Source of the DNA: Schlesneria sp. | GTDB lineage: Bacteria; Planctomycetota; Planctomycetia; Planctomycetales; Planctomycetaceae | Length of the DNA: 64,000 nucleotides | Direction: 5' to 3' | Assembly (NCBI GenBank): GCA_028291515.1 | Contig: JAQGHU010000001.1 | Span: 62,001 to 126,000 of the forward strand | Shown here: positions 23,351-56,241 of the stretch, in pieces | Position numbering within the stretch: the stretch's first letter is position 1 | How the letters are laid out: each line of letters starts with the position of its first letter | Notes under the pieces: model-generated | Databases searched by the model: none | The model's input: the letters and a program-made list of their open reading frames with translations, nothing else | What the model was told of the DNA's origin: nothing | Program-made: the position numbers and the translations under genes

Positions 23351-23390
23351 AAAACCGTGACGATCACTGGCCAACGCGTCACTTCGGTTT
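23351..23390 (-). terminator. Possible hairpin at the end of the giant gene
   Basis: On the minus strand AAACCG-AA-GTGACG pairs with CGTCAC-CGGTTTT (two-base bulge, 14-base loop), overlapping the giant gene's stop codon at 23379-23381 and followed by only four T. It could reduce transcription into the kinase gene. The short T-tract makes this weak. Confidence 0.35.
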
Positions 23391-26300
23391 GCTGCCAAGT
23401 TTTCTGAACAGACGAGCCGCTCGACCAAATCTCGCCGTCGCTTCTTCAATGATCCTGTTTCCGGTACGCAAGCCAGCCAATCCGGCAACAGCAGTTCCCA
23501 TTACCACCGCAGCGCCTGCACTCGCGTGTGTGCTCTGTCCGTCATCCGCGGCGGCCGATTCGAGAGGATTAGCCTCGCCTGCCGCAGCGGAATTCTGATG
23601 TTGGGACTGTTCAAAAACCTCTTCCGTCAGGCGTTCAGCTTGCTTCCATGCCCGCCGTGCTGACATCGACTTCCAGCCATTCATTAATGAGGTCTCTGAG
23701 ATCACTTGGGAGTCAATCTGAACTTCGGACTCCGGATGCAGAGGTCTCCCCAAAGTCGCAGCCATTGGCGCATGGGCATTTCGGATTGCTTCTTCGGCGT
23801 CGGCCGGGGCCTCGCCCGTGGTCGGCTTGACTGGCCGAGTCCCCGACGATGGTGGACGATCGCCCGTATCGTTCTCGTCAACGATTTTCCCCTGACGCAC
23901 CTCGAACAGGTCCAACAAGGTTCTCAGCCGCGATTCCCCAGGTTCCAGCAGGAGGAAGCGATACCGTCCATCAGGCAGATCAGAAACCGTCTTCATCAAA
24001 TCGTCGAGCACATTCTCATCGAGACGGATTCGCTCGATCGAGCCGTCGGCTCGAATGATTTCGAGAATCACCTGTCGGTCTGCCGCAATCCCCTCGTCGG
24101 CGCTGATCATTTCGAGTCGCAAGGTATCTTGCTGAGCCAACTGCAGTGGCGCGAGGCCCAGCACATCGATCGTCGCCGTCTGTTCGGGAAAATGGAGATA
24201 GGCCACGGGCGGCGTCACATCGAACGGAAACGTCGACAATCCTTCGCCGGGCACAGGGACCGCGGTCGCCAATATCGAAATGTCTTGGAAGACCACTGTC
24301 CCGGGATTGCTGGCGTTGCCGGTTGCCAGGACGATTTTAGTGTTCGCGCCATGGAGCGAGGCGTAATTCGGGTCTTGCGAATTGTAAATCGCGCTGCTGA
24401 GATCCGCATTAATGTTGGGCGTTGGCACCGGTGGCGGCGAGGGAACAGCGGCATCGGGGACGGACTGCGTGGCGGTGTTAACGTTCGGTGCCGTCAATAC
24501 CACATGCGGATCGTGAGCGACCTGGACGTTGATCAAGATCGGGGCGGACTGGTCGCCTTGATTGGGATTGTGTGTATACGTGTGCGAGAACGAGAAATGG
24601 CCTGAGTTGGCAAACACCTGGGTGCTGGAAGTGCCATCTCCCCAGTAGATCGTGACGGTGAAATTGTGTTCCCCCGGCCGGCCGAAGTCGCCGCTGACCG
24701 TCAAGATTCCATCAGCACCGAGTTGAGGGGCCTGGATGTTGTACACCAGTGGCAACGTATTGGTGATACTGCCGGTTCCCGATTGGATCACGACGTCATT
24801 TGGCACCGTGTGCTGTGTCGCGTCCGGCGTTGTGTTCGGGTTTTGGCTGCCTAAGACAACGCTGGCGGCAGCGGTCAGGTAGACCGTGCCATTGCCTGCG
24901 GCCGAAATATCATTTGTGACACCAGTGTTGTTCACGACAACATTGTGACCGGAACTGAGAGTGATATTCCCGCTGCCACCTGAAGCTGTGATCGGCGAGT
25001 TGACGGTGATGTCAAACGCGCCCCCTTTGGTCATCAATGTGATGCTGCCGCCAGTAGAATTCGTGACCGGACCATTGGTCGGCGACGAGAACGATGACAC
25101 CTCGATCGAACCGGTATTGGTGACGACGATATTCCCGATGGCCACACCGTCATTCACGATCCCGCTGACGCCACCGATCGTCCCGATCGTCAGCAGTTGT
25201 CCGCCAATGTTATCAACGCGGATGTTGCCAGAGCCTGTATTGTGAGCGGCAATCGTCGCGACTTGGGTCAACAGAGAATTGCCGACACTACCAATTCCTT
25301 GCGTGGTCTGCATCACGAGAGAACCCGTGATGACATTGGCAACGTTGGCCGCCGCACCATTCACAATTCCGCCATGAGTGGCAGTGAGCGAAACTGTTCC
25401 TGCTGGCTGCGTAGTGAGGAGTGTGGAATTGAGGTTGATGTTTCCGTTCGTGTTCAGAGCGGTCATCGCGATCTGATTCGTGGCACTGACGATGTTGTTG
25501 ACCGTGATCGCTCCCGTCGTCAACTGAACCCCGGCGGAGGCATTGGTATCTACTGCGCCATTGAGCGTTGTTAATCCCGTTCCCGTGGATTGGGTCAACG
25601 TCGCGGATCGGATGCCACCGTTTTCGGTCACGTTATGCGCCGAAGCAATCACGACATTACCTAATCGCGTGATTCCACCCACAGATCCGCCGAGCAGCAC
25701 ATCTCCCAAGGTGCCCGCGGTGACTTGGAGGTTTTCCGCATTGGGTGCGGCATTGGTCGCGCCAATGGTACTGCTGAATGTCACGTTACCGCCCGCGGCA
25801 TTTCCACCGGTGGTAGTGTTGATCGAAAGAGTTCCCGCCGAACCGTTCAGCGTTGTCGCTCGCAGGAAGCTGACCGCGTCGCCGGTGGTCGTAATGGATC
25901 GAGTGCCTGCGATCGGCAACGTGACGCTGACTGCTCCCGCACCATTCTGAGTCACTGCCCCATCGGAAGCGATGTTGCCATTCAGAGTCAGCAATCCCGC
26001 ATTCGTCAGTGTCACGCCACCGGTGCCGGTCGTGGCGATATTGTTATTGATCGTGATCGCATTCGTCGTCAGGGCGACTCCGACCGATGAGTTCGTGTTC
26101 ACAGCCCCATTCAGCGTTGTCGTGCCATTTCCAGTGGATTGGACCAGGCTTGTGGCGGTGATACCTGCCTGCTCGGTCAGATTATGAGCATTCGTGATCG
26201 TCAGATCGCCTAACCGCGTTCCGCCACCGGCGGCACCTGTCAACAGAATATTACCGCTGGTGCCCGAGTTAAGAGTGAGATCCTGCACACCTACCGCCGT

Positions 26301-29300
26301 AGCGTTCAATGTGCTACCGAATGTAATGTCCGCGCCGATCGCGTTTCCGAACGTCGTGTTAATCAGACTCGTTCCCGTCAGTGTCGTCGCCTGAAGAGTG
26401 ACTTGCTGGGCCTGAGTCCGAATCGTCCCGTCCAGCGATGTCGTCCCGAACTGCACAGCACCCGTGATCGAAGTCAGAGTTCCGGTGATGTTTGTCGCGC
26501 TGACGGTGTGAGTCACTCCCGAAGTGAAGGTGACGTTGTCGCCCGCATTCAGCCCGATCGTGACCAGCCCCGTGCTCAGGAAGTTCACCGGATTCGTGAT
26601 CACATCCGTGACAACTGGGCCACCGACCTTTCCAAAGGTGATGTTGTAGGGCTGATTCGTCGTGGTCAGCGTCGCGAGGTTGGTGTTGCCCTGGAAGGCC
26701 ACAGTGTCGGTGGTATCCGTAATTAGTACCGTGTCCGCCTGCAGGGTACTTTGGAATGTCGTCGTATCGCTATTCGTAATTGTCAGAGTGTGAAGGGAAT
26801 CAACTTGTCCAGCGAAGCGGATGGCACCGCCGGTCCCCGCATTGATCGTCAGGCTCTCTGCATTGACGCCAGAGGTGGCTCCGTGGACCGTGCCCAGGAA
26901 GCTCACATTCGCTCCTGCAGAGTTCCCTCCGGTTGTGGTGTCGATCATGAGCAGCGATCCGCTGCCATTAAGCGTCACATTTGTCGCGAAGCTGACAATG
27001 TCGCCCGTGGTGCTGAGCGTTCTTGGTTCAGTGATCGTGATCAATCCAGCGCCGTTTTGGGTGATCGCCCCATCGGCACTGATGTTGCCATTGATTGTCA
27101 GCAGTCCCGCATTGGTAAATGTGACCACACCGGATCCCGTAGTCGTGATCGGCGCATTGACGGTGATCGCGGCGGTCGTCAATTGAACGCCGGTTGAATT
27201 AGTTGTCGCTACGTTTCCATTCAACGTTGTTGTCCCGGTCCCCGCTTGCTGAACCAGACTTGTCGCATTGAGTCCGCTCGTCTCGGTGACGTTATGAGCG
27301 TTCACGATGAGCGTATCACCCAGTTGAACCAGTCCACCAACGGCGCCAGTGAACAAGACATCCCCGGTCGCGTTCACTGTCAGACCCTGGGTCCCTGCTG
27401 TCGTCCCGTTCAGGGTGCTGTCAAATGTGACGTCCACACCCGTCAGGGTCGTCTTCGCAGTCACATTGTTGCTCACGAGGACCACCGCGTCGTGATAAGT
27501 CTGATTACCGCTCGTCGTGACACTTGTCGTCTTGAGAATCGTCGATCCTGCGGCATCTGTCGTCAGGAATGCCAGCGAAGTGGTACCGCCGACTTTGTCG
27601 TCGCTGGTTCCATCACCGAATGTCGTCGTTCCCGAGGCGTTGACTGTCAGCCCCTGCGTGCCCGCGGCAGTCCCATCCAATGTGCTGTCGAATGAGATGT
27701 TGGCGCCGTTGAGGGTCGTGTTCGCGGTGACACTGTTGCTGGCCAGCACGACGGCGTCGTGATACGTCTGGTCCCCACTCGTCGTGACGCTGGTCGACTT
27801 CAGCGCCGTCGAACCCGCAGCATCCGTCGTCAGGAACGCCAGCGAGGTGACTCCGCCGACCTTATCATCGCCCGTTCCATCCCCGAACGTGGTCACTGCT
27901 GAGGCATTGATCGTCAGGCCTTGTGTCCCCGCGGTGGTCCCGTCCAGCGTGCTGTCGAACGACACGTTCACACCGGTGAGGGTTGTGTTGGCGGTCACGC
28001 TGTTGCTGGCCAGCACGACAGCATCGTGATACGTCTGATCGCCGCTTGTCGTGACGCTTGTCGATTTCAACACCGTTGAGCCCGCGGCATCGGTCGTCAG
28101 GAATGCGAGTGACGTGGTTCCCACTTTGTCATCGCCCGTTCCATCACCGAACGTGGTCACTCCCGAGGCGTTGATCGTCAGGCCCTGCGTGCCCGAAGTC
28201 GTCCCGTCAACTGTGCTGTCAAACGAGACATTCACACCGTTCAGCATCGTGTTCACCGTGACGCTGTTACTCGCCAGTACTACGGCGTCATGATACGTTT
28301 GATCGCCACTCGTGGTGACACTCGTTGATTTCAGAAGTGTCGAACCCGCCGCGTCGGTCGTCAAGAATGCCAGCGATGTCGCACCACCGACCTTGTCATC
28401 GCCGGATCCATCACCGAACGTCGTCGTGCCCGAGGCGTTGACGGTCAACCCTTGTACACCGGCGGCCGTCCCGTCCACAGTGCTATCAAACGAGATATTC
28501 ACACCGTTGAGTGTGGTGTTCGCCGTCACGCTGTTGCTGGCCAACACGACAGCGTCGTGATAGGTCTGGTCTCCACTGGTCGTGACGCTCGTCGACTTCA
28601 GCACCGTCGATCCTGCGGCATCTGTCGTCAGGAATGCCAGCGAAGTGGCACCGCCGACTTTGTCATCATTAACTCCATCACCAAAGGTTGTTTGCCCCGA
28701 GGCGTTGATCGTCAGCCCTTGTGTTGCGGCCACGGTTCCATCCAACGTGCTGTCGAACGAGACATTGACGCCGATCAGAATGGAGTTCGCCGTCACACTG
28801 TTGCTCGCCAAGACCACAGCATCGTGATAGGACTGGTTACCGCTCGTCGTGATGCTTGTCGTTTTGAGGAGAGTCGAACCAGGCGCATCCGTCGTCAGAA
28901 ATGCCAGTGACGTTGCTCCGCCGACTTTGTCGTCGCCGGTTCCATCACCGAATGTCGTTGTGCCAGAGGCATTGACTGTGAGTCCCTGCGTGCCGGCAGT
29001 GGTTCCATCGACGGTGTTGTCAAACGAGACGTTCACGCCATTCAGCGTCGTATTTGCCGTGATGTTGTTGCTAGCCAGGACCACAATGTCGTGATACGTC
29101 TGGTCCCCGCTGGTCGAGACGCTGGTCGACTTCAACACCGTGGATCCCGCGGCGTCGGTGGTGAGGAATGCCAGAGTGGTCGCCCCACCCACCTTGTCAT
29201 CGCCCGTGCCGTCGCCGAATGTTGTCACTCCCGAGGCATTGACGGTCAATCCCTGCGTGCCAGCTAACGTCCCATCCAGAGTGCTGTCAAACGAGACGTT

Positions 29301-32300
29301 CACACCGGTCAGAGTCGTGTTCGCGGTCACGCTGTTGCTCGCCAGCACCACAGCGTCGTGATATGTCTGATCACCGCTCGTGGTGACGCTTGTCGACTTG
29401 AGGATCGTCGAACCAATCGCATCAGTTGTCAGGAACGCCAGCGACTTGGCACCGCCCACTTTGTCATCACCGACCCCGTCACCGAATGTCGTCGTTCCAG
29501 AGGCGTTGACGGTGAGACCCTGGAGTCCCGCGGTGGCAGCGTCTACCGTGCTGTCAAACGAGACCGTCGTCGCATTCACGATGGTGGTTGATTCGAGGAT
29601 CACGGCATCCTGGAAATCGACTACTTTCGCATCGATCGTTCCGGCGTTGAGGTGCGTTGTTCCAGCGGCATCCGTCGTCAGACTCGCCAGGACATTGGTA
29701 GTTCCGATTGCCCCATTGAAGGTCGTCGTTGTGGCATTGACGAGTAACGTTCGATCATTCGCGGCGACGTCCGCATTGATTGTCTTCTCGAACGCGACGG
29801 TGGTTGCATTGATGGTCGTATTGGCGGTCAGGATCACGTCATCTTGCAGGTCCAGCGTTGTCACGTTGATCACGCCACCGTTGAGATCCGTGGTCCCGGG
29901 GGCATCGGTCGTCAGACTGGTTAAGGCGTTGGTGGCCCCGATCGCTCCTTCGAAGGCAGTAATTCCACCAGCCGTGATCTGAAGATTGTGGGCGCCATCA
30001 AGCGTTTGGGTGAAAGTGACATTCTGAGCAGCCGTCAACGTGATATCGGCTGTCAGTTGGACGGCGTCCTGATACAGCAGGTCGGTCCCAGCGTTTTGAT
30101 TAGCCGAGATCAGAATTGCGTCCTTGGAATCAACCGTGATCGAACCTGCGGTGGCCGATTCGACACCGTCGATGACAATGTCTGCTCCTGCCGGTGCTGC
30201 GGTATTGGCAGTGAGATTGATATTTCGACCAGCGATGATCTGATTGACCGCCCCGTCACTGTCGATGCGAATGCTATCATTCGATCCCGCGGTCGCGAAG
30301 ACATCGGAACCTTTGAGTATCACGTCTCGGCCAGCGTCGATTTTGGCATTGGTTGCTGCCGACTCGTCGATCCACACTCCGCCAACGCCATTGCCATCCG
30401 AATCAGCTGTCAGGATGATGTCGCTCGTTGACCCCGTCGTCGTGACAGTCGCGCGGATGATGATGTCGCGGGTTGCCGAATAGGTAATTGTCACGGCCTT
30501 CGATTGATCCGCCGTGATGATCACATCCTGGCCGCCACCATTGAGGGTGATATCGCCCTGACCTGCTGTCAGTGTCGCATTCACCATCGCGTTCGTGACA
30601 TGCACGGCGCCACCTGATCCGAGGCCAGTGCTGATTGGCTGGTTCACGGTCAGGAGTCCATCAGCGGTGATATCGACATCGCCACTGGTGGTGGAGATCG
30701 CCGCGTCAACATCGACGGAACCCGACACCCCAGTCGCGAGCAGCGTCACCTTGCCTGCTGTGGCAGAGATACCGGAGCCCCCGGTTGCTACGGTCAGGGC
30801 TCCATTTGTTGTCACATTGACCGTACCGGCTCCCTGTTGATTGATGCGCTGGATTGATAGAGCATCTGTCTCGACGAGTGCGACATTTCCCGACGTTGTG
30901 TTCGTGATATCAATCGAGGCTAGTGACGCTTCAATCGCGTTCGAAGAGCCAATTCCGGTCGCTGCAACAATCACCAGACGCCCATTTGCAGCATCGATAT
31001 CGACGGCCGCGTTCGTATCGGCATCGATCACGGCTCCGCTGGTGCTGTGAATCTGAACTGCGACGTTGCTGGAACTGCTGGTCACCAGCTTGCCGAGCGT
31101 GACATCTCCACCGGCGTTCAAATCAATCAGTCCGGACCCGGCGTTCAAGATTGTCACGTTTACATTGTCATCGGTCATCACAATCTTACCGCCGGTCGTC
31201 GTTCCGGCGTTTACTTGAATCGTCCCTGTGGTCGTGGCAACATCAGCTCCGGCGGTGAAAGTGACATCGTTGCGTTCAGAGGTGAGCGTGACCTGACCTG
31301 ACTGAGCGGTGATCGCACCTTGCAAGACCAGATTGCCGCCGTTATTCGCCGCCGAATCGCCGGCAAACAATGTGATCGCACCACCTCCGGTTGTCGTGAC
31401 GACACCGGCTGAAGTGAGTTGGCCATCAATGGTCGCAACACTGATGGATGCCCCCACATTGGTGGCGGTCGTGAGGACCAGGGCTCCGCTGGCAGCGGTT
31501 TCTTGAATGGCGATCGCGCCGGACGTGCTGTTGATGGCGGAGACGCTATCCAGATTCGTATCGATATCGTTCGAAGCACCGATCCCCGTCGCGGCCATCA
31601 GCGTTGCAGAACTTCCCGTGAGGTTAGCGGCCTCGCCGGTCAATGATTCAGAGATTGCGCCGACGCCGCTTAGATCCGCATCAGCCGTAATGACGATATT
31701 GCCACGGATGCCATCGCCGTTCGCGTTCGCGTTGACGATGCTGACCGCAACGTCGTTGGGAGCAGACAATGTGATGTTGCCGTCATCCGATTGGATGACG
31801 GATCCATCGGACATGGAAATGTTGCCCGTTAGAGTACCCACAGAATTGCCTGCGCCATTGTTGTAGGCGGTTCCCGCGAAGACCTGCACGGAACCTGTGC
31901 CTGCGGCGGAAACGGTGCTCGTCGCGGTGAACGATGCCGTGTCACCGGCCAGGAGTGTGATCGCGGAATTGCCGCCCGTCGTCGTCACGTTGGCGTTGAT
32001 GGACAGATCGTTCGTTCCGGCGCTCCCGTCCGACGACAGCAGGATTGAGCGATTGCCGGTCCCAGCGTTGGTGACGTTGGCGTTAACGGTGAGAGCTCCA
32101 ACAGTGGAGATATCGATCTTGTTGCCAGCTGTTCCGCCGGTGATCGAGACTCCGTTGGTTCCGCTTGCCAAGTTGGCGATCGTCAGGGTTCCGGAGACAT
32201 CGCGGACGTTGATCTCTCCGGAGACTGTGGTGGCAGCCAAACTGTTGGTGGCGACTTCCAGCTTGTTTCCGTTGGCGACTCCAGTGGCGGCTCGCAGATC

Positions 32301-35300
32301 GATTTCGGCGGCCGTGATATTGGCGGTCGTCGGGTTATCGACGGCGTCGCCATCAATGATCTGACCACCACCGTTGGCAGTCGTGTTCAGGGTGACTCGA
32401 GTGGTTCCCGCGTTGACATTCAACACGGTGATATCGCCCGCGACTCCCTGTGACGCATTGACGATGATCGCACCATCGGTCGTCACGACACTGGTGAGCG
32501 CCAGACCATCGAATTCATTGATCGTTAATGACTTGCCGCTGGCGCTGGCTCCTGTGATCGCCGCGTTGACGGTGGCCACACGAGTGTTCAGAACCGTATT
32601 GCCTCCGGTTGATCCGCTAGCGAAGTCCAGGTTGGCAGCCCGCAGTTCTCCCAGCGTGCGGCCGCTGGCATCAACCACATCGCTGGTCCCATGCAGACGC
32701 AGATTGCCCGTATCGCCCACATTCAAACCAGCGTCCGGCAGGGTGAGGATGCCGTTTGCCTCGAGCGCCAGTTGATCACCAGCCGACAGCGCCGTAGCCG
32801 TATTGATGTTGCGAGCGTCGAGGTTTCCAGTGGCCACGATCATCGCCGACGCGGCAGCGCCGGGTGCGAGACTTAAGGCACCAGTCCCGATGGTGGCGTT
32901 TCCAGTGAACTTGATGAAGATTTCGCCGTTGGCATCGGTGATGGCGGCTTTGGTCAAGCTGCCAGAGATCGTCGCATCGATGGCATTGCCAGTTCCGGTC
33001 GACCAATTCGTGATATCACCGATGTTGGTTTTGGCGCTGAGCGACAGATCACCCGCGGTGATCATCGTCGAACCATCATTGCCGTCGACGAGACTACCTG
33101 TTGTCGCTTCCAGAGTGACGGTCCCGGTACCAGCGGTAATCGCCTGAGCCAGTGTCAGATCACCGGTGCTTGTTTTGACAGAGACGTTGTCGTTCGTCGT
33201 TGTGATTCCGTTCGCGGCACCCACCGAGCCAATCGTCAACGCGTCGGCATCCACGTAGGTGATTGATCCATCCACATTGGCGGCGAGGGTGCTAACGAGA
33301 TTGGCCTGGGTTAGCGAATCATTTCCCGTTCCAAGTAGCAGCAGATTATTGGCCGAGATAATCGAACCGGCCGCTTCCGTGATTCCCCCTGCCGAGGTGG
33401 TCAATGTGACGGTTGCCCCGGCTGCCGTGAGATCCTGACCAGTGCCATCGCCAATTGTCAGCAAGCCGCCGCTGGTGAGATTCACATTACCGACATTGGT
33501 CGCGATCCCGTTGGTCGCGGTGAATAGTGTTCCATCCGCGATCACTGAACCAACTGTGATAGCATCCGCATCATTGTAGGTAATCGAAGCATTTGCAGCA
33601 GTGTTGCTGGCGGCAAACGTCGCGACGTTATTGTTTTGATCGAGCGTGATATTTCCCGCCGACGCGTTGCGAACGCCCAGTTTGTCGGCGGTGATCGTGC
33701 CAGTCGCCGATTGCGAGATTCCACCTGTGGTTGTCTGTAGACGGACCGTGCCTGTTCCGGCACTGACGGCCTGATTGATCTGGATTGCTCCAGCAGCATT
33801 AAGCGTGAAGTCACCATTGGTCGTCGTGACGCCGCTGGTGGTACCGAACAGAGAAGGGTTCGCATCTGCCGTGATGCTTCCGATTGTCACTCCGCCGGCG
33901 GTGATAACTCGAACGACACCGGCTGCACCGGAATCATTCACGGCCAACGTGTTGATCTGATTCGATTCGGCCAGGACGACATTCCCGGCTGAGGTTGTGA
34001 CTCCGAGAGTGTCGGCAGTGATCGTCTTACCAGTCCCTTCTGTGACGCTGCCGCCAGCTGCAATCCGAACAGTGGCAGTCCCGGCGTTGATTGATTCATT
34101 GATGCCGAGTGTCGTTCCCGCTTTCAAAGTCACGTCGCCATTCGAAGTCGCCACGCCCGTCGTTGCGGTGAAGAGCGTAGTGCCGCTGACGGAACCGACA
34201 TTGAAGCCATTTGCGTCTCGGAACTTCACAGCTTGACCAGCAGCCGCGTCATTGGCGGCGAATGTCGTGACATCATTCGCTTCGGTCAGGACGATATTCC
34301 CCGATGTCGTCCTTGTCCCGAGTGCCGCAGCAGTGATGGTGGCCGCGGCGGCTTCTGTGATGCTTCCCGCCGCCGAGATCCTGACCGTGGCTCCCGCCGC
34401 AGCGATTGATTGATTGAGAGTGACGGCACCGGAGGCTGACAAAGTCACATCGCCCGTGGAAGTACTGATTCCGTTTGTCAGTGCGAACAGACTGCCATCC
34501 GCGGTGACGGAGCCGACCGAGACTCCTGTCGTATCCACCAGCGCGACGCTGCCGCCAACCGAGGCGTTGCTCGCGGCAAACGTGCCGACAGTGTTGTTCT
34601 GGTCCAGAGTGATATTGCCAGTCGATGTGGTCACGCCCAGGCTGTTGGCGGTGACGGTTTTACCGGATGCCTCGGTCATACTTCCGCCGGCAGCGATGCG
34701 TACGACGGCGCTGCCAGCATTGATCGATTCATTGATACCGATCGCGCCACCGGCCTTGAGCGTGACATCGCCATTGGAAGTCACGACACCCGTTGTCGCT
34801 GCGACATAGGCATTGGACCCGACTGCACCGACGTTGAATAAGTTTGCATCCTGGAACTTCACTACCTTGCCAGCGGCGATATTGCTGGCGGCGAACGTCG
34901 TGACATCGTTGGCTTGAGTCAACAAGATGTCGCCAGCGGTCGTCCGGACACTCAATGCCGTCCCGGTGACGATTGCGGCGGCGGCCTCCGTCACATCGCC
35001 TGCTGCCGAGATCCTGACCGTGGCTCCCGCAGCAGCGATCGATTGATTGAGGGTCACTGCTCCTGCCGCGGACACTGTGACATCGCCGGCAGAGGTGCTG
35101 ATTCCATTCGTCAGTGCGAACAGACTTCCATCGGCAGTGACTGAACCAATCGTGACACCCGTCGTGTCCACAAAGGTGATCACTCCGCCCGATGACGAAT
35201 CGCTGGCAGCGAATGTGCCGACGGTGTTGTTCTGATCCAGCGTGATATTGCCGACCGTTGTTGTGATTCCCACGCTGTTTGCTGTGATCGTTTTGCCAGC

Positions 35301-47264: not shown

Positions 47265-47337
47265 GGGGCCCATTCCTGCTTCACTTGTCAGGGCGTCCCC
47301 TGACCTAAAAGCGACTTCACATCAACCGCGATCTTTG

Positions 47338-47369
47338 AAGTTGCGCATTATTTAATGCTTGCGCAACTT
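47338..47369. promoter_or_regulatory. Perfect inverted repeat upstream of the giant gene
   Basis: AAGTTGCGCA and TGCGCAACTT are perfect 10-base arms around a 12-base AT-rich spacer, 74 bases upstream of the giant gene's start. An inner symmetric element (GCATTA-TT-TAATGC) overlaps the arms. No T-tract follows on either side, so an operator is more likely than a terminator. The regulator is unknown. Confidence 0.5.
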
Positions 47370-47883
47370 AGATGGTGAAATCCTAGCCCTCTTGGGAGAA
47401 GGAAACACCAGATTCTTCAGCAAACTTTGCCAAAACGCCCGCTTCTTACTCATCTAATACGCGACACCGCGGCAATTTCGTTCGCCGCATTCTCTACTTT
47501 CTCGAATCCGCACGATCTTTTTAATGACATAGCGACTGGCTGACCCGATCCAGGAATCGGCATATCCTGTTAATTGCCAGGATGTTGCTTCTAATTGCCG
47601 CCAACATTATTCACTCACCAAGTCGCACACAAAGCTAGCCCCTAGCAGTGGGCGTGCCACGGAGCGCTCACGGAGATTCGAACTCAAAGCCAGTTCGTCA
47701 CGCTCTGTCATCGAGTGGAGAGGCTAAGGCGCTTGACGACAGGCGGTTTCTGGCGAACTTTAGGGGTCGTGCGGCTTGAAGCGAATCTGAGCGAAACTTT
47801 GATTACTCTGATAATGCCTGCCCGAAAGACCTGAATGGCGAAGTCTGTACGCGGAGCGCATTCAAAGCGGCCGGGAGATAGGA
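47370..47883. other. Divergent intergenic region between giant gene and exported-protein gene
   Basis: About 510 bases, more AT-rich than the genes around it, hold the promoters of the giant gene (minus) and of the 47884 gene (plus). I see no RNA gene or mobile element. A 60-codon minus frame at 47708-47890 has no ribosome binding site or protein-like sequence. Confidence 0.45.
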
Positions 47884-48594
47884 ATGTCACTTTCCATTGT
47901 TGGCAACGTTTCGGTGGCGGGCCGAGGCACGGCCATTATGGCTGCATCGATCTTGCTGTTTGCTGGAATCGCGTCTGCACAACCAGTCGTGAACGTGGCG
48001 GCGGTCCCGCCAGCGCCTGCGGGTGAGGAAACGCCAATCATCCCCCACAATCCTCGTGCGACCGAGAATTGGCAGGACAAACCTCTGGGGCAACTGAAAG
48101 CTTCGATCTCGCTCAATCTTCCCGAATCCGAAAAGCTCAGCCCCCTGGAAGTGGCTCGACTGAATCAGGCCAACCAGTTCTTGACGAGCCACGGATCGTT
48201 TTTCTCACCGCTGGGGGATAGTCGTCCTTGGCTGCTGTCGACCTATGAATGGGAAGCACCGGCCACTCGGCACCTGCCGTTGTTGTTCGAAGAGCCCAAC
48301 TTGGAACGACAGGGTTACACCTATGGGTTCAGAACCTACTGGTGTGGCGAGGAAGGGGTGATTCATGTTCCCGAGTGCCTGCAACCCCTAGTGTCGGCGG
48401 CTCACTTCTTCGGCCGAGTCCCTTTGATTCCGTACAACTGTGGTGTCGACGATCCGTGCGAGCCAGTCTATACGCTGGGCGTGGATCGACCGGGGACACC
48501 GGCGTTCTATCGTCGGCATTACCTTCCGCTGAGCCTGAAAGGGGCCATTTATCAGGCCGGGGCGACAGTCGGAATGCTGTACATCTTTCCCTGA
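47884..48594 (+). CDS. Exported planctomycete-type protein of unknown function
   Basis: The 236-residue product starts at an ATG with GGAG 6 bases upstream and has a signal peptide (GTAIMAASILLFAGIASA). The second half shows an ordered set of motifs: LPLLFEEPNLERQGYTYG, CLQPLVSAAHFFGRVPLIPY, VYTLGVDRPGTPAF and LPLSLKGAIYQAGATVGMLY. From memory, exported planctomycete proteins with PLYFEE-(N)LERYG and HFFG-(V)P-LPY motifs form a recurrent family of unknown role; this assignment has not been searched. Its stop is 10 bases from the end of the convergent M50/HlyD gene. Confidence 0.75.
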   Translation: MSLSIVGNVSVAGRGTAIMAASILLFAGIASAQPVVNVAAVPPAPAGEETPIIPHNPRATENWQDKPLGQLKASISLNLPESEKLSPLEVARLNQANQFLTSHGSFFSPLGDSRPWLLSTYEWEAPATRHLPLLFEEPNLERQGYTYGFRTYWCGEEGVIHVPECLQPLVSAAHFFGRVPLIPYNCGVDDPCEPVYTLGVDRPGTPAFYRRHYLPLSLKGAIYQAGATVGMLYIFP

Positions 48595-48604
48595 GACTTG
48601 CCGC

Positions 48605-50809
48605 TTAAAACGCAAATGTGCGTGAGAGCCAGCGCAGCATGCTGCGTCCGAGAGATTGCGGCGCAACCAAGATCTTGGCCTCACCAGCGGCATTCCGTGC
48701 CAGTGGCAAGTTCGTGGAATCCAGGTGGACTCGCACTCGATACCAAGTTCCGACTGGAACGATGCTTCCCTCGGATGTCGAACGAGCGGGCAGATGGAGG
48801 CGCTGGACCGCTTCACGAGGGAGCGTCTCCAGATCCAAGGCGGCGACTTCCGTCACAGTTCCGGTGAGAACTTCGCCAGCCAATTCATGCCAAACCGTTC
48901 GGACGGGCTGGCCGATTTGCACCAGGTTGATATCGTCCTGGTTGACCAGCAGCGTGGCGTCACGACTTTCCTGTGAACCAACGAGACACAACGTCGTCCC
49001 TGGTTTCACAAAGCAGCCAGAGTTTCGGTCATCGAGAGCAGATCCGGCCCAGGTCGGCAGCGCTCCGGGTAACGCCTGCCCCGATTGTGGCGTCGCAGGC
49101 AGCACGATCCCGTCACAGGGTGACTTCAGGACCAGGCGTTCGGCGGCGTCACGCAATTGAGCCAGTTGGACTTCGAAATCGTGCTTGGCTTCTCGCGTTG
49201 CCGGAATGAGCGCCGCGACCTCGGGATCCAAAATGCGTCGACGTTCGAGTTGCCCGAGCCGAAGGACATGCAGGTTGTACTCGCCTTCCAATCGAATGAG
49301 CCGCGTCTGAAGTTGCGGATCCACGAGACGAGCCACCTCCTGATCAGCGACGACGGAGGCTCCCAGTTTGACACTTTGAACAAGAGTTCCACCCAGCGTC
49401 GAATAGACGCGGAGTGCATCGCCTTGATCGAGTAGTGCTCCCGCCCGAACGCGGCTGGGAACGGGAAGGAACAGTATCGCGATCAATAGAAGTCCGCAGA
49501 ACGCCGCGCGAGAGATCAAGCGAGGCCAATTGATCTGCTGTCGATTCTGCGAAGCTCGAAAAAAGCGGCTTGCGGCCAATACAGGCCGTAGGAACATGAG
49601 ACCAATCATGGGAACAGCCATTAGTTGAACGAAGGCGGCCAGGCCATAGGGCTCCAGCCAATAGTAGAGCGACCACAAAATGAGGAACGCCAGGAGAACG
49701 CGGTACGTTGAGGACGCGACTCCGTAGCCGAACAGCAACCACCTGCGAGCTCTCGACGAATCGGCGAAGGATCGATCACGAATTCCGCAGAACCACCAGC
49801 AGATCCCGCTGCGAATGGATTCGACGGATTGTTGCTGCAGATTGGGGATCTCGAGCCAGTCGGAGAGAATGAAATAGCCGTCGTATCTGAGCAGCGGATT
49901 CCCGTTGAATAGCAAAGTGCTGACTCCACAGATGATCATCAGATTCAGACACATCGAATGAAACAGTCCCGGCGTGCTAAACCACCAGAGTAATGTGCTG
50001 GTGGCGGCGATGATAAGTTCGACCCACATGCCAGCGGCGCTGACAGCGATGCGTTTCCATTTGTCGCGAAGCATCCACGAATCGGAAACGTTGCAATAGA
50101 GCGTGGGGGTGAACACGAGCAGCATCGCGCCGAGTTCCCGACATTCGCCACCGAATCGCTTGCAAGCCAAGCCGTGGCCGAACTCGTGCAGAACTTTGAC
50201 AACGGCCAGTAGCATCGGGAGCCAGATGAGGTTCTGGGTCGCGAGCAAAGCATGAGCATCTGGCAAGCGTTCAATGACATGATCGAACTGAACGACCACC
50301 AGTACGATTCCCCAACCGATCAGCAGCAGGCTTGCGAACAGCATGGCGGGTGAGAAAATCCAACCGATCCTGTTCAGTAACCATTCGAGCAGCCAATCGG
50401 GATCGATACCCCGGAACCGAATACAAAGGACGCTGCTGAGACGCGTCCAGAATCGTCTCGATCTTGTCTGCCGATCGCGAGCCACCAGCATTCGACCGTA
50501 TCCGGCACCGGCGGCGATCAGCAGGCCTTGCACAATCAATTGGCCGATGAACTGCTGCAATTCTGCGGGGGGCAGCGTGGCAGGCTGGAAACGGTCGTGG
50601 AAAGAATTGCAGATGTCGTCGACAGTTGCCTGTCCGTTCAATTGCTGCAGTACAAAATATTCTTCGTCGCGCAGCTCGTAGTATGCCAACGTCAGGGGAT
50701 CCTTGATGCCCCACGAGCGCCGTCCTGCGAACTCCAACGGCACGATTTTCAAGTCGGCTCGTTTTGTCCACGGGACTCGCTGGCCCGTCGTTGGTGCCGA
50801 CGTAGACAT
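48605..50809 (-). CDS. PqqD-like / M50 zinc metallopeptidase / HlyD fusion
   Basis: Start at the ATG at 50809, which overlaps the upstream stop as TGATG; a GTG one codon earlier is possible. The product is 734 residues. Residues about 25-100 resemble a PqqD-like winged helix domain (YELRDEEYFVLQQLNGQATVDDI). Two helices near 155-205 lead into the metalloprotease motif HEFGH (about 208-212; LHEFGHGLACKRFGG), with the downstream NVSDSW...AAGMWVELIIA typical of M50 site-2-type proteases. Further helices run to about 465. The C-terminal 250 residues are HlyD-like: a lipoyl-type hairpin (SVKLGASVVADQEVARLVDPQL, LKSPCDGIVLP) and a beta-barrel end. Last gene of a three-gene operon. Function probably processing or export of a peptide or protein; substrate unknown. 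Confidence 0.87.
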   Translation of the reverse strand: MSTSAPTTGQRVPWTKRADLKIVPLEFAGRRSWGIKDPLTLAYYELRDEEYFVLQQLNGQATVDDICNSFHDRFQPATLPPAELQQFIGQLIVQGLLIAAGAGYGRMLVARDRQTRSRRFWTRLSSVLCIRFRGIDPDWLLEWLLNRIGWIFSPAMLFASLLLIGWGIVLVVVQFDHVIERLPDAHALLATQNLIWLPMLLAVVKVLHEFGHGLACKRFGGECRELGAMLLVFTPTLYCNVSDSWMLRDKWKRIAVSAAGMWVELIIAATSTLLWWFSTPGLFHSMCLNLMIICGVSTLLFNGNPLLRYDGYFILSDWLEIPNLQQQSVESIRSGICWWFCGIRDRSFADSSRARRWLLFGYGVASSTYRVLLAFLILWSLYYWLEPYGLAAFVQLMAVPMIGLMFLRPVLAASRFFRASQNRQQINWPRLISRAAFCGLLLIAILFLPVPSRVRAGALLDQGDALRVYSTLGGTLVQSVKLGASVVADQEVARLVDPQLQTRLIRLEGEYNLHVLRLGQLERRRILDPEVAALIPATREAKHDFEVQLAQLRDAAERLVLKSPCDGIVLPATPQSGQALPGALPTWAGSALDDRNSGCFVKPGTTLCLVGSQESRDATLLVNQDDINLVQIGQPVRTVWHELAGEVLTGTVTEVAALDLETLPREAVQRLHLPARSTSEGSIVPVGTWYRVRVHLDSTNLPLARNAAGEAKILVAPQSLGRSMLRWLSRTFAF

Positions 50810-51804
50810 CACTCCCCTGCCTTCACGGAGTGCAGAATTAGGACAGCCGACTGACCGGGACGTAGAATCAGTTCACTATTATCAATCTCTGCCCAGACTC
50901 GCATCTGGTTCGTGGCAGGATCAACCTCGGGATCGACAAAAACAAGGCGGCCTTCAAATTTTGATTTCTTCAACTTTTCGGAAGGGTCGACGATCAGTGT
51001 GACACTGCGACCGACTAGGTCTGAGGGCGATAGTTTTGCCGACACGAATGCTTCGGCACGCAGGCGATTTAGCCGAATCATGCGGACCAGGGGAGTGCCG
51101 GGCTCAACCCATTCCCCCCGCTGCTTTTTCCATTGGACGAGCACTCCTGGAAAGGGGGCTTTGATGAGGCGACGTTCCAGGGACAGTTTTGCTCGGTCGA
51201 CATCGTGTTGTTTGAGCTGATGAGAGAGGACCGCTTGCTCGTGGTCCACGGCCGCCTGTTCGATTTCGAGCGTTGCTTTGTCAGCCAGGAGTCGCAGTCG
51301 ATCCAGTTCTGTCTGCGAGACACTCTTCGGAAACTTTTCGACGGATTCCTGGGAACGCTTGAGTTCCGCTTGTGCGACCTCCAGAGACTTGCGGGCGAAG
51401 CGCACCTTGATGTCGTTCTCAACCAAGACATGTGCCATCTTCAACTCGGTGACGGCGCGTTCCAGGATCAGGCGTGCTTCCTGATCGTCGATCTTTCCCA
51501 AGACCGTATCACTCTCGACGGTGACCCCTTCCGAGATCTCGCGATGAATGAGCGGACCGGCCTCGCGTGCCGAGATTTCGGCCTGTTCAAGCAGCGTCAG
51601 GAGTGCCGACTCGACGCGGATCTCTTCGGCTTGAAGTATCGCCGATAATTGGATGCTCGCGAGAGCGAGTAGTGCCACGAGTTGCAGAGACCGCTGGACG
51701 GTCCTCGTGCGATTCAGGCCGAAGCCTGACCCTTGTGGCTCTGACGCCATTGACGGAGTTCGCGTGAAGTGACTCAACGCTCTGTTTGTCATGGGACTTT
51801 CCAT
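50809..51804 (-). CDS. HlyD-family periplasmic adaptor, short form
   Basis: The 331-residue product has a hydrophobic segment near residues 39-60 (LQLVALLALASIQLSAILQA) that would act as a signal or anchor. After it come a half-lipoyl motif (ISEGVTVESDTVLGKIDD), a long alpha-helical hairpin (residues about 110-210), the second lipoyl half (LIKAPFPGVLVQWKKQRGEWVEPGTPLVRMIRL) and a beta-barrel part (VTLIVDPSEKLKKSKFEGRLVFVDPEVDPATNQMRVWAEIDN). The ATG overlaps the upstream stop as TGATG, and its own stop overlaps the next ATG the same way. It is the middle of three coupled genes. Met5 is an alternative start. Confidence 0.88.
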   Translation of the reverse strand: MESPMTNRALSHFTRTPSMASEPQGSGFGLNRTRTVQRSLQLVALLALASIQLSAILQAEEIRVESALLTLLEQAEISAREAGPLIHREISEGVTVESDTVLGKIDDQEARLILERAVTELKMAHVLVENDIKVRFARKSLEVAQAELKRSQESVEKFPKSVSQTELDRLRLLADKATLEIEQAAVDHEQAVLSHQLKQHDVDRAKLSLERRLIKAPFPGVLVQWKKQRGEWVEPGTPLVRMIRLNRLRAEAFVSAKLSPSDLVGRSVTLIVDPSEKLKKSKFEGRLVFVDPEVDPATNQMRVWAEIDNSELILRPGQSAVLILHSVKAGE

Positions 51805-53774
51805 CAGAACCTCAGTCGAATTCGAATCGCGTCAATCAGGTCATGCAACCAAACGTAGCCGAGAGATTTCTTGCCACAATGAATGCGAGCGATGGCGGTC
51901 GCCCCGGGACGCAGTTGAGTCACCTGCTGGCTGTCAAACTCCACGACCGCCCTGACGTGACCGGTCGACTGATCATTGGATTCAGAGGTCAGCGAAACTT
52001 CACGAACCTTGCCACGGTGATTTCGCCCCGGCTCTGAAGGGAGTTGGAAGTCGACTTCGAGATGATCGCCGAGCGCCTGCTGCGCCCGCAGCAAGTGACC
52101 CGTGTCTTCGTCGGCAACTTGAACTTCCACAATCCACGATCCAGAAGTCTCACCAATCGTCAGGAGCGATTGACCTCGTTCCACGGGCCTTGCGGACAAA
52201 TGCTGTGCCAGGTTCCACGACAGGACCCGGCCCGCAATGGGACTACGCAGGGTTAACTGCTGCTGACGCTCGTCGATCAACGTGCGTTGCCGTTCCAATG
52301 TCTTCAGTCGCTCTTTCAATTCCTCTTCGTCTGCCGCTAACTGCCGAATTTTGCTGGCATTATCGGATGAGGCGCTGCTGGTCAATCGAGCAAGCTGCAC
52401 TCCTCGTAATCGCTCGCGCGTTGTAGCGAGTTCGCCGATCACTCGCGGTGTATCCTGTTCTAACTCTGGATCTCGCAACACGAGCAGTGGCTGACCGGCA
52501 TCAACGTCGTCACCGTGTTTGACGAGAACCTGATCGACAATTCCCGCTGTGCTGGCGAAAACGTCGCGTCGCAAACTGGGCCACAATTCGCCGTGTCCCG
52601 TCACCGTGAATTGCGAGGGGATCGCGATTAGTGCAATCGAAGTGAATGTCAGAACTGCCAGTGCGATTAACAGTGTGGGCCGACGAAAGAGGCTGTTTCC
52701 ACTTCGCCAGCGCTTCCATGCGAGCAACCCGGGAATCTCATTCAGCGTCAACCCGGCACGCAATGCGAATGCAGAGCGTTGCACTAATGACTCGGCGCGA
52801 CTCCGAGATTCGCTCCAATTCGGATCGGCGGTGAATTTCTCCAACACAACCATGGCGATGGGCTTGCCGGTCGCCGCCTGGTCGGGTGTGTCAGTGACGC
52901 AAAGCACCCCGATGCAACACGCGTTGGTTTCTTGCTGGTAACGTTCCAGCAATGTTGTACGAGCAACATCCACCGTCGGATCTGGAGGAAGCGCCGTCCA
53001 GATCTTGTCGCTCGATTGACGAATACTGTTCGTCACACTTTCCAGCGACCGAACTGCCCCTGCTCGGGAATCAATACGCTCGACACCGCTAATCGCCTGG
53101 ACTCGATATCTATTTTGCTTCAGGACCAGAATCGCTGCTCGATCGCAGTCGACCAGAATCCGGCCGTCATTGACGATCGCGGCGCAGATGGACTGCAGAT
53201 CTAATGACAGCTGAAGTCGTTGCTGGTAGTGATCCCATTGCTGCCAGATCCCTTTGATTCGTCTCAGTTGCTGTAATTCTTGTTGCGACAAGAAATCCGC
53301 GGTGATCTCACTGAGAGCCGCCAGGTATTGATAGACAGTCGGGGATAACGTGGCATTCGTTGGCAGTGGAAAGACCGTTTCCAGAATTCCGACAGTGACA
53401 TTCGCATGATGCAGCGGGCTTAAGACTGAGAGCCGATCTGCATGTAAGCCTTCGGCCGAGCCGGAAGTCACTTGTGGATGCGAGCCGCGGGCGACCTCTT
53501 CGAGCAACTCCTGGCGGCCTTCCGCAAGTTGATCTGCGAGAATACCCGTTTGTGGGTATTCACCGGCGGACTCCCAGAGACCATCGAGCGACGGACGCCA
53601 GAGTGTCGCGTAAGTGGCACCGCCTGGCTGCAGAGATCGGCGAAGAACTTCACCAAAGAAACGCGCCGGCTCTAACTCATTTCTGGCCAGTTCTGCCAAT
53701 TCATCGATGCTGCGTTCCATCTGCAAACGCTGCGCATCACTGTTCACCGTGGATGGACTGTGGAGCGAGGACAT
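51804..53774 (-). CDS. GAF-like sensor fused to HlyD-type adaptor
   Basis: The 656-residue product is the first gene of the operon. Residues about 20-350 are soluble and contain a GAF-like domain (LDLQSICAAIVNDGRILVDCDRAAILV... GVLCVTDTPDQ...PIAMVVLEKF). A membrane helix follows near 367-388 (PTLLIALAVLTFTSIALIAIP), then a HlyD part with lipoyl halves (FASTAGIVDQVLVKHGDDVDAGQPLLVLRD; LTLRSPIAGRVLSWNLAQHL), a coiled-coil hairpin (about 440-510) and a beta-barrel (HLEVDFQLPSEPG). The order places the sensor in the cytoplasm and the adaptor in the periplasm. The start lacks a strong ribosome binding site. GAF is a match by pattern, not search. Confidence 0.82.
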   Translation of the reverse strand: MSSLHSPSTVNSDAQRLQMERSIDELAELARNELEPARFFGEVLRRSLQPGGATYATLWRPSLDGLWESAGEYPQTGILADQLAEGRQELLEEVARGSHPQVTSGSAEGLHADRLSVLSPLHHANVTVGILETVFPLPTNATLSPTVYQYLAALSEITADFLSQQELQQLRRIKGIWQQWDHYQQRLQLSLDLQSICAAIVNDGRILVDCDRAAILVLKQNRYRVQAISGVERIDSRAGAVRSLESVTNSIRQSSDKIWTALPPDPTVDVARTTLLERYQQETNACCIGVLCVTDTPDQAATGKPIAMVVLEKFTADPNWSESRSRAESLVQRSAFALRAGLTLNEIPGLLAWKRWRSGNSLFRRPTLLIALAVLTFTSIALIAIPSQFTVTGHGELWPSLRRDVFASTAGIVDQVLVKHGDDVDAGQPLLVLRDPELEQDTPRVIGELATTRERLRGVQLARLTSSASSDNASKIRQLAADEEELKERLKTLERQRTLIDERQQQLTLRSPIAGRVLSWNLAQHLSARPVERGQSLLTIGETSGSWIVEVQVADEDTGHLLRAQQALGDHLEVDFQLPSEPGRNHRGKVREVSLTSESNDQSTGHVRAVVEFDSQQVTQLRPGATAIARIHCGKKSLGYVWLHDLIDAIRIRLRF

Positions 53775-54156
53775 GCGGTCCCATCAGAACTCGTTTTCGT
53801 TCGAAGGGGAGGAGTATATCCGAACGTCGGCAACAATTTCGATTTGAGAAACCCCGCTGCGTTCCAAACCATCTCGACAAAAGCGAGATGGACTGAACAG
53901 GGGACCTGCGCGGAATATTTAAAATGGGGGCTTCTGATTTTGCGGTCAAGATCTTTCAGCGGTCGACTTTTCTGAAAACACCGATTTTGCCGAGATTTCC
54001 GTTTCTGTCAGTTGGGAAATGTGTCGATCACTTCAGATGAAAGACTGGCCACCGTTGTGGATTTAGTCCCCATACGTGCCCGTCATTCCATGGCTCATCG
54101 ATCACTGGGAACGAAGTCGTCCCCTCATTGTTAGCGATAGTCGGGAAGTGCCAGCG
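53775..54156. other. Divergent promoter region between the HlyD operon and the TolC-like gene
   Basis: About 380 bases lie between the operon start at 53774 and the chosen start of the TolC-like gene at 54157. The shared region fits joint control of the export genes. I see no clear -35/-10 pair or inverted repeat. The short minus frame at 53737-53949 is not supported. Confidence 0.5.
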
Positions 54157-56241
54157 ATGCGACGAACCGCAGCGGTCCTAGGAATCTGCGCGATGACCAT
54201 GATGGTCGTCGGTGGGTGCCTACACCATGCGAATACGCCACCCCCGTCGGTAGTCGGGGTCGATGCGGCTCACTATCAGAACCTCGCGAAAAAGATCGAG
54301 ATTCCCGATCATCCGACGCCATCAGAAGATCTTCTGGCGACAACTCCAGCGCCAAGGTCGCTGGTGAACCTCGACTCCGAAGAGTATCTCGATTTAAGCC
54401 TCGAAGAAACGATCCATCTGGCGCTGTCCAATTCATCGATCCTTCGCGACTTGGGGGGGACGATGTTACGTACCCCGGACGCCACGAAGAGTCGCTTCGA
54501 TTCATCCGTCGTCGAAACTGATCCACGCGTCGGTGTTGAATCCGCACTTAGTGCATTTGACGCCGCATTTACGACGAATATGTCGTACGAGAACAATGAC
54601 CGCGCTCTGAATAACGTGTTCTTCGGCGGTGGTACCCGATTGTTGAAACAGAACTTCGGGACGTCGCAGTCGCAGCTCAGTAAAACCGCCGCCACGGGGA
54701 CGCAGTTTGCGATCAAAAATTACACTCAATACGATCGAAACAACGCCCCCGGCAATGAATTTCCAAGCGCCTGGACGACGTGGTTTGATGTCGAAGCGAA
54801 GCATCCTTTATTGCAGGGAAGTGGCGTCGATTTTAACCGTCTGGCAGGGCCTGGAGCGCAACCCGGCGCCATTAACGGCGTCGTCATCGCTCGGATCAAC
54901 ACTGACACGGCGTTGGCAGAATTCGAGATCGGCGTGCGTAACTTTGTCAGTGACGTCGAAAACGCTTATTGGGATCTTTATTTTGCCTATCGCGATGTGG
55001 CGGCCAAGGTTCGGGCACGCGACGCGACCCTGAAGACATGGCGGAAAATTCACGCCCTGAATGAACAGGGAAAGAGCGGTGGTGAAGCGCAAAAGGAAGC
55101 CCAGGCTCGTGAACAGTACTTCCGATTCGAAGAGGAAGCTCAGAACGCATTGCAAGGCAAGTTGGTCGACGGAACCCGTACCAACAACGGCAGTACGGGC
55201 GGCACTTTTCGTGGCTCTGGCGGGATTTATGTCGTCGAGCGACGATTACGATTGTTGACGGGCCTTCCGATCAGTGACGGGCGCCTGATTCGCCCTTCCG
55301 ATGAGCCGCTCAAGGCAAAAATGGCATACAGCTGGGAATCTTGCCTCGTCGAAGCCTTATCGCGTCGCGAAGAACTCAGAAGACAAAAGTGGCAGATCAA
55401 GAAGCGTGAAGTCGAACTTCAGGCCAATAAGAACTTCCTGCTGCCACGCTTGGATGTTACTGGCAGATACCGTTGGCGAGGATTTGGCAACGATCTCTTC
55501 CCGCAGGGTCAATCCGGGGAATTCAACAATGCGCTGAGTGACCTGGTGTCGGGACAGTTCCAGGAATGGCAGGCCGGTGTGGAACTGTCTTTCCCAATCG
55601 GGTTCCGCAAAGCCTATGCGGCGATTCGCCATTCGGAATTGCAGTTGGTTCGCGAGCGAGCGTTGCTCTACGAAGAAGAGCGCTCCGTTGTCTACGACCT
55701 CAGCAATTCGTTCTCCGAAGTTGAGCGTGCTTATGCGTTGGTCGAAACGAACTTGAATCGCCGCATGGCCGCCGCTGAACAGGTCGCCGCCATTGAAGCG
55801 ACGTACGAAACAGAAACAGACACGGCAACTCTTTATCTGCTGCTGGAAGGACAACGACGATTGGCCGAGGCGGAAACCGCCTATTTCCGGTCATTGGTCG
55901 AGTACCAATTGGCAGTGAAAAACGTCCAACTCGAGAAGGGAACGCTGCTCGACTACAACGAAGTCTACCTGAACGAAGGGGCCTGGCCGGAAAAGGCATA
56001 CGAGGACGCGGCGAATCGAGAATCTCGTCGAGGTGCCCCGTTTGAAGCTGTCGCACCAAGTGTGCGATCGCAATGGCTTAGCCAGGGAGTCTATCCGCAG
56101 ATGCTGGTCCCGACGAATGCACAGCCGGTGCCGAATGATTTGATCCCGAAATCGCCCCAGCAATTCGACCCGCAGAATGGCGTTCCACCTCAACCGTCAA
56201 CGGACACGAGCGGACGTTCCAACCTGATGGACTCCCCTTAG
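54157..56241 (+). CDS. TolC-like outer membrane efflux protein, lipoprotein
   Basis: The start at 54157 (MRRTAAVLGICAMTMMVVGGC) has GGGAAG 8 bases upstream and gives a lipobox (VGGC); the frame is open to a GTG at 54076 with no better site. The product is 694 residues, longer than the 450-500 usual for TolC. It matches the outer membrane factor family: LDLSLEETIHLALSNS near residue 90, FDAAFTTNMSYENND, VRNFVSDVENAYWDLYFAYRDVAAK, and in the second half VELSFPIGFRKAYAAIRHSELQL, LSNSFSEVERAY, YLLLEGQRRLAEAETAYFRSLVEYQLAVKNV. The C-terminal 100 residues are Pro-rich. It is divergent from the HlyD operon and probably its outer-membrane partner. Confidence 0.9.
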   Translation: MRRTAAVLGICAMTMMVVGGCLHHANTPPPSVVGVDAAHYQNLAKKIEIPDHPTPSEDLLATTPAPRSLVNLDSEEYLDLSLEETIHLALSNSSILRDLGGTMLRTPDATKSRFDSSVVETDPRVGVESALSAFDAAFTTNMSYENNDRALNNVFFGGGTRLLKQNFGTSQSQLSKTAATGTQFAIKNYTQYDRNNAPGNEFPSAWTTWFDVEAKHPLLQGSGVDFNRLAGPGAQPGAINGVVIARINTDTALAEFEIGVRNFVSDVENAYWDLYFAYRDVAAKVRARDATLKTWRKIHALNEQGKSGGEAQKEAQAREQYFRFEEEAQNALQGKLVDGTRTNNGSTGGTFRGSGGIYVVERRLRLLTGLPISDGRLIRPSDEPLKAKMAYSWESCLVEALSRREELRRQKWQIKKREVELQANKNFLLPRLDVTGRYRWRGFGNDLFPQGQSGEFNNALSDLVSGQFQEWQAGVELSFPIGFRKAYAAIRHSELQLVRERALLYEEERSVVYDLSNSFSEVERAYALVETNLNRRMAAAEQVAAIEATYETETDTATLYLLLEGQRRLAEAETAYFRSLVEYQLAVKNVQLEKGTLLDYNEVYLNEGAWPEKAYEDAANRESRRGAPFEAVAPSVRSQWLSQGVYPQMLVPTNAQPVPNDLIPKSPQQFDPQNGVPPQPSTDTSGRSNLMDSP

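Follow-up and report, generated by a model that had tools for sequence, protein, structure and literature searches.

A giant gene of Schlesneria and the M50-HlyD operon beside it: a candidate export module related to the SecA_DEAD set

A window of 64 kb from Schlesneria sp. (positions 62,001 to 126,000 of contig JAQGHU010000001.1, here C48, of an 8.59-Mb genome) contains a gene for a protein of 7,964 residues next to an operon for two HlyD-type adaptors and a fusion of an M50 protease to a third HlyD part, with a TolC-like gene divergent to the operon. We put the chance at about even that these genes form an export module dedicated to one giant surface protein, which would be a variant of the SecA_DEAD or type I secretion system (T1SS)-like module. 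For the passage of planctomycete proteins of thousands of residues to the surface, our proposal offers candidates for the cargo class, the tag and its reader, the protease, the channel and the motor. The proposed tag, reader, protease and channel are encoded in the window; the motor would be supplied in trans. A preliminary description of this DNA had suggested a new export route, should the operon be linked to the giant protein. The set itself is not new but a variant of a published module, because its association with secondary SecA_DEAD proteins (SecA2) was reported in 2015, in the accessible part of that article (PMC4452313); the giant cargo, the leader and the leader reader are additions to it. 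Below, handles beginning with G, L and C denote genomes, loci and contigs.

Three genes on the reverse strand, coupled through overlaps of 1 and 4 bases, form the operon. They encode a 656-residue GAF-HlyD adaptor (51804..53774), a 331-residue HlyD-type periplasmic adaptor (50809..51804; Pfam HlyD) and a 735-residue fusion of a PqqD-like domain, an M50 core and a HlyD part (48605..50812), hereafter M50-HlyD. The divergent TolC-like outer-membrane factor (54076..56241, forward strand; OEP, E 4.5e-21) has, by eye, a lipobox-like VVGGC. Between M50-HlyD and the giant gene (23379..47273, reverse strand) lie 1,331 bp, occupied by a convergent gene for a 236-residue protein (47884..48594, forward strand). 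Coordinates of the open reading frames (ORFs) and Pfam matches confirm the arrangement first described, with the giant about 1.3 kb from a coupled HlyD/HlyD/M50-HlyD operon. The first adaptor had been called plain HlyD-like; its HlyD domain stands (HlyD_3/HlyD_D23), and a GAF region had been missed (weak, E 0.0079, below cut-off). A single hydrophobic segment, residues 367–385, separates the two parts. Neither an ABC ATPase nor an RND pump was found in the window, as originally stated, and no SecA either (one protein query each, E ≤ 0.01, ORFs of at least 80 residues).

The protease part of M50-HlyD matches Peptidase_M50 (PF02163) just above the cut-off (27.8 versus 27.2 bits), and HlyD_D23 matches weakly. 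Its active-site residues are intact: HEFGH lies at residue 209, and H209, E210, H213 and D311 are invariant in sets of 27 and 47 sequences. This part is related to proteases of ribosomally synthesized and post-translationally modified peptides (RiPPs), namely those of daptides (NF041824, E 3.3e-50, 171.3 bits, below the cut-off of 300) and epipeptides (NF058609, YydH/LiaK, E 4.4e-11, also below cut-off).

The giant, our proposed cargo, starts with ATG and has no cysteine; Thr, Ala, Gly, Val and Ser together make up 61% of its residues. Pfam scans of both halves at E ≤ 0.01 returned Beta_helix (E 4.8e-17) and NosD and nothing else, with the beta-helix repeats confined to the first half and no RTX repeats among the matches. 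A 267-bp tandem repeat runs through 8.2 copies at 27370–29564. At the N-terminus a basic stretch is followed by LEERQVLNVTA, within a leader of about residues 10–50; the segment that entered our leader profile A3 lies at 47097..47246 on the reverse strand. Judged by hydropathy only, the first 130 residues lack a strongly hydrophobic stretch resembling a classical signal peptide (best 15-residue value, 1.43). A Gly/Ala-rich stretch and a basic tail end the protein. A C-terminal membrane anchor for such giants is only possible, because the C-terminal stretches of five of them have modest hydropathy (1.2–1.95).

We next consider the neighbors of the set in other genomes, using a tree of 108 M50-HlyD proteins whose loci vary in length, many of the stretches being short. 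The branch of the window comprises 35 loci. The OEP gene is divergent in 12 of them, and a large LExRxVL protein is encoded downstream in eight, at 1.0–1.6 kb in seven and at 3.8 kb in L113. The 236-residue protein, which has a hydrophobic N-terminus, belongs to a family without Pfam or NCBIfam match, present at 17 non-duplicate loci including the window, plus L238 and L240, and marked by the motifs PL.FEE.NLER.G and YTLG..RPG. Among the loci searched, this family occurs with window-type or giant-bearing sets and not at other SecA2-type loci. All 12 large ORFs adjoining a gene of the family carry LExR.xL, versus 14 of 71 large ORFs elsewhere in the loci retrieved, and some of those 14 adjoin SecA2. 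Three of the 17 loci (L105, L183 and L184) show no giant where one was expected, two others (L091 and L163) lie close to contig ends, and in G018 about 23 kb separate the family member from the giant, and it is not beside M50-HlyD either.

On its other side, the giant gene is directly followed by a gene for a Ser/Thr kinase with WD40 repeats (17917..23298, reverse strand; 1,793 residues), whose CxxC pairs at the N-terminus look zinc-ribbon-like by eye. In six of seven readable cases the gene after the giant encodes a kinase (the window, G008, G040, G057, G018 and G160, not G027). WD40 repeats are present on all six except that of G018, where the sequence stretch ends within the gene. Identity to the kinase of the window is 61% in G008 and 31% in both G040 and G057. 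In two genomes SecA2 joins the group: a 9,367-residue LEDRTML giant in G027 adjoins SecA2, M50-HlyD, GAF-HlyD, HlyD and OEP, and G160 groups SecA2, the 236-residue family, a 2,006-residue LEPRIVLN protein and the kinase. Leader proteins also sit beside SecA2 where M50-HlyD lies elsewhere (two LEDRTLL proteins in G121, one LEARQLL protein in G042). Rhodopirellula baltica has the system as well, and the giant at locus L185 bears LETRRVLNAD. Since this gene order is common to several genera of at least two families, the association of the set with giant LExRxxL proteins, raised as a possibility from the window alone, looks real at the level of gene order.

Some of these loci have peculiarities of their own. 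The G008 giant (L193+L192+L092) is read as two overlapping frames of 1,581 and 2,858 residues, reflecting a frameshift, an assembly error or two genes. In G030, a 2,838-residue LEDRTLL protein beside M50-HlyD (L241:3704-12220, forward strand) ends in MIPTLDLLGLF...PRQRS, which resembles an IPTL-type C-terminal sorting signal. Two LExRQLL proteins of about 1,170 residues (L071:4653-8159 and L072:4619-8134), adjoining a SecA2/M50-HlyD set, have a metalloprotease-like end (HELGHVAGxxH) and, unlike the remaining leaders, a strong N-terminal hydrophobic stretch.

We modeled M50-HlyD from 47 sequences, with a mean predicted local distance difference test score (pLDDT) of 85.6. The model consists of an N-terminal domain, long helices bearing HEFGH, and a C-terminal adaptor matching MacA, EmrA and MexA. 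With the whole model as query, the top 50 Foldseek matches were adaptor structures only, and the M50 part was unmatched to any solved protease among them. The N-terminal domain was also modeled alone (pLDDT 82.7) and compared by VIA-align. Its best matches were structures solved with leader peptides, over 83–86 aligned residues: 6jx3_B (Z 9.8, root-mean-square deviation 2.7, 84 residues), 5v1v_A (Z 9.7) and 5v1u_A (Z 9.6). We take the leader-bound domains in these structures to be RiPP recognition elements (RREs). The PqqD structure 5sxy gave Z 7.5. Pfam PqqD matched 33 of 41 such N-terminal domains at E ≤ 1, that of the window with E 0.0072, below cut-off. The domain, spanning residues 9–105, is thus predicted to have the winged-helix fold of RiPP leader-recognition elements, and we propose that it reads the leader and that the M50 part cuts it. 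Cleavage coupled to export, originally suggested by the fusion of protease and adaptor, is strengthened by this predicted fold.

A candidate motor came from the same genome. Its one further M50-HlyD match (32% identity) lies on C79, where locus L003 holds GAF-HlyD, a SecA_DEAD protein, M50-HlyD, HlyD, OEP and a 2,886-residue LEPRRVM protein. This secondary SecA (C79:11908-13851; 648 residues; SecA_DEAD, E 1e-98) is accompanied in the genome by only one other SecA match, the housekeeping protein of about 1,190 residues on C97. The LEPRRVM protein (L003:471-9131, reverse strand) combines TIG/Ig repeats and a Hint domain with colicin D at its C-terminus; by architecture it would be a polymorphic toxin and is a likely cargo of the SecA2 set. 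Among 59 genomes (this one and 58 relatives), M50-HlyD was found in 56 and a secondary SecA, called from the match list as an open frame clearly shorter than the housekeeping SecA, in 53. G010, G015 and G017 have neither (Fisher p 6e-4); in G012, G018 and G021 M50-HlyD is present and a secondary SecA was not found. A second SecA2 query again returned none in all six. M50-HlyD of the window type occurs in 18 genomes; a secondary SecA was identified in 16 of them, G067 carries a fragment of undecided kind, and G073 has none. M50-HlyD matched in 34 of 149 genomes of a phylum sample, twice weakly, and a secondary SecA adjoins it in further families (e.g. G110, G150, G154, G168, G180, G184 and G202). 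The claim that the set lacks an ATPase is therefore rejected as stated, and the SecA_DEAD protein of C79, acting in trans, is the likeliest candidate for the missing motor.

Leader numbers also follow SecA2. Profile A3, built from 22 leaders in which LE.R is invariant and preceded by basic residues, was searched against the 59 genomes above. At E ≤ 1 it matched 2, 4, 2, 0, 2 and 5 times in the six SecA2-free genomes, versus 3–52 times (median 19) in the 53 with SecA2 (one-sided Mann–Whitney p 4.7e-5); there was no correlation with genome size. An independent model, NF012209 for LEPR-XLL proteins, gave matches over cut-off in none of the six and in 37 of the 53 (one-sided p 0.0017), among the matches listed, which extend up to E 0.382; the zero was read from the best E-values (four genomes without a match, the others at 0.79 and 0.93), the listed matches over cut-off having E ≤ 0.12. 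Single NF012209 matches mean little because at E ≤ 1 the model also matches seven of 14 control genomes, one of them over cut-off. A LEPR-XLL family search at E ≤ 0.001 found no match in the Schlesneria genome, and none in the controls either.

As to co-occurrence of the set with LEPR-XLL giants, which the preliminary description had put forward as a check, large LExRxxL proteins do lie beside the set. The leader of the window, LEERQVL, is not recognized by NF012209 (0 families at E ≤ 10), and that model matches six of the 22 A3 leaders at E ≤ 10. Outside the class, an A3 match at E < 0.01 was found in seven of 13 genomes with M50-HlyD and a secondary SecA, in 10 of 24 with M50-HlyD (leaving 14 with no match) and in seven of 117 without it; G077, G157, G187 and G216, from the phylum sample and without M50-HlyD, match at E < 0.001.

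In the model that we infer for binding, cutting, motor, route and direction, the giant would be synthesized with an N-terminal leader consisting of a basic stretch followed by LExRxVLxx. The PqqD-like domain of M50-HlyD would bind this leader, much as RRE domains bind those of RiPPs. The chain would be pushed into the membrane by a motor of the SecA type, most probably the C79 protein, and cleaved there by the M50 site, either at the leader or at the hydrophobic stretch near the C-terminus. Still unfolded and free of cysteine, it would then be carried outside by the HlyD parts, three in number, together with the TolC-like protein. GAF-HlyD and the kinase/WD40 neighbor may serve regulation, and the 236-residue protein may be a secreted partner. 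Most leader proteins would be substrates encoded away from the machinery.

Several observations weigh against this proposal. The locus of the window has no SecA gene, and in the stretches examined, several of them short, SecA2 occurs in none of the 35 window-branch loci versus 12 of the 73 others, a split with weak support (74). Giant-type genes are retained in G012, the closest relative, and in G018, with only a housekeeping SecA found in each. In the structural comparison, proteins that do not bind leaders reach Z 8.2, the top rows being only somewhat higher, and by Foldseek alone RRE matches have E 2e-3 and worse. Training sequences account for 11 of the 150 A3 matches listed; among the other 139, five are at most 12 kb from the machinery where 2.0 are expected (p 0.053), and we do not claim a local enrichment. 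The leader statistics draw on few SecA2-free genomes (six) and ignore relatedness. Finally, the 12 motif-bearing ORFs beside the 236-residue family are not independent, five coming from the window and close relatives and two being mutually close, and the count is partly circular because position was part of the basis for choosing the proteins that gave the motif and the leader profile.

The same two relatives, G012 and G018, are the reason for retaining, as a rival, a set without its own ATPase. Here the giant would cross the inner membrane through SecYEG with the housekeeping SecA, and the module would be a device for release from periplasm to outside: M50-HlyD would trim the chain, and the adaptors and TolC would pass it on. 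We regard this as unlikely, if the best supported of the rivals. It would fit the lack of SecA2 in loci of the window type, and a giant-type set may work without SecA2, a mode kept possible by the two genomes that have the giant without a secondary SecA. G018 is a single contig; G012, however, is a metagenome-assembled genome in about 200 contigs, albeit 99% complete. Moreover, the weakly hydrophobic N-terminus of the giant, the SecA2 genes inside the giant loci of G027 and G160, and the leader numbers that track SecA2 all favor a SecA2-driven module over housekeeping Sec.

Alternatively, the set could handle a small RiPP-like peptide or signal, with the giant merely adjacent. The kinship of the M50 part with daptide and epipeptide proteases, both below cut-off, points this way, as do the many leader proteins distant from the set. 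Against it, the giant, the 236-residue gene and the kinase stay beside the set across genera, and we consider it improbable. Least probable is an ordinary type I or efflux assembly in which an ABC or RND pump encoded elsewhere drives these adaptors: no pump matched in the window, no ABC gene is conserved at the set (matches above 60 bits within 5 kb in two of 108 M50-HlyD loci, neither with a giant, in line with the operon lacking an ABC gene elsewhere) and an RND query matched no ORF in the 80 loci L108–L187, although the Schlesneria genome has an ABC ATPase (L005:8553-9242) with permease-like neighbors about 60 kb away on the same contig, and a pump is possible in G018, where no secondary SecA was found, because a 1,050-residue gene, RND-type by eye (L073:3639-6791, reverse strand), lies 2 kb from M50-HlyD and HlyD. 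The ABC ATPase and the permease-like genes after it (L005:8553-12139, on C48) have a MacB-like appearance, with no indication that they are connected to the set.

Returning to the SecA2-driven module, a broader version, which we hold tentatively and at somewhat less than even chances, would make it a SecA-paralogue system outside the numbered secretion types. Such a system would export LExRxxL proteins, from those of more than 9,000 residues to a colicin-D-tipped polymorphic toxin, via an RRE-M50-HlyD unit and TolC; leader reading would be common to it and RiPP biosynthesis, and the leaders would mark the exported proteome of the class.

Two further features of the window lie outside the set. 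The stretch 56409–57893, which follows the TolC-like gene in the same orientation, encodes a lipoprotein-like protein of 494 residues with a C-terminal hydrophobic stretch and no Pfam match. At 10754–16459 a gene for a planctomycete cytochrome-like protein with PSD/PSCyt domains is followed by another in the same orientation.

Compared with type I secretion (HlyBD-TolC), the window shares HlyD-type adaptors, a TolC-like channel and a large cysteine-free candidate cargo encoded adjacently. It differs in having no ABC ATPase, a candidate signal that is N-terminal rather than C-terminal, no RTX match, and an intramembrane-type protease fused to an adaptor. From RND tripartite pumps it differs in having no match to an RND transporter. 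With LEPR-XLL proteins (NF012209) the giant shares an N-terminal LExRxxL on a very large protein, although that model does not match its leader. A LEPR-XLL protein of about 8,000 residues is reported from Vibrio in the accessible part of PMC10868602, and giant genes are discussed in PMC12288469, the accessible part of which gives no secretion route. In the literature searched, comprising few subscription papers and no preprints, we found neither a paper connecting the SecA/M50-HlyD module with LExRxxL leaders or with giant proteins nor a description of a RiPP-type leader reader serving giant-protein export. The cargo class, the leader link, the leader-reader domain, the 236-residue family and the kinase neighbor are additions that we did not find in print there.

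The closest known system is the one that Kamneva et al. (2015) describe in the accessible part of PMC4452313. There a secondary SecA_DEAD protein is associated with M50/HlyD, GAF-HlyD, HlyD and sometimes OEP, the SecA gene being separate from the rest of the module in some genomes. An ABC gene is missing; SecA_DEAD is suggested as the ATPase and M50 as the membrane part, and the broader biological role is called completely unknown. The window likewise has GAF-HlyD, M50-HlyD, HlyD and OEP and no ABC gene. In contrast, its copy has no SecA_DEAD neighbor and adds the 236-residue gene, the giant and the kinase, and no cargo, leader, giant or leader-binding domain is named in that part of the article. 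With RiPP leader recognition by systems using M50 proteases, the window shares the core of the M50 superfamily and a PqqD/RRE-like fold beside the protease. It differs in that its protease falls below both family cut-offs and is fused to HlyD, and in that the candidate substrate is thousands of residues long rather than a short peptide. If our proposal is right, a leader reader of the RiPP type serves the export of giant proteins.

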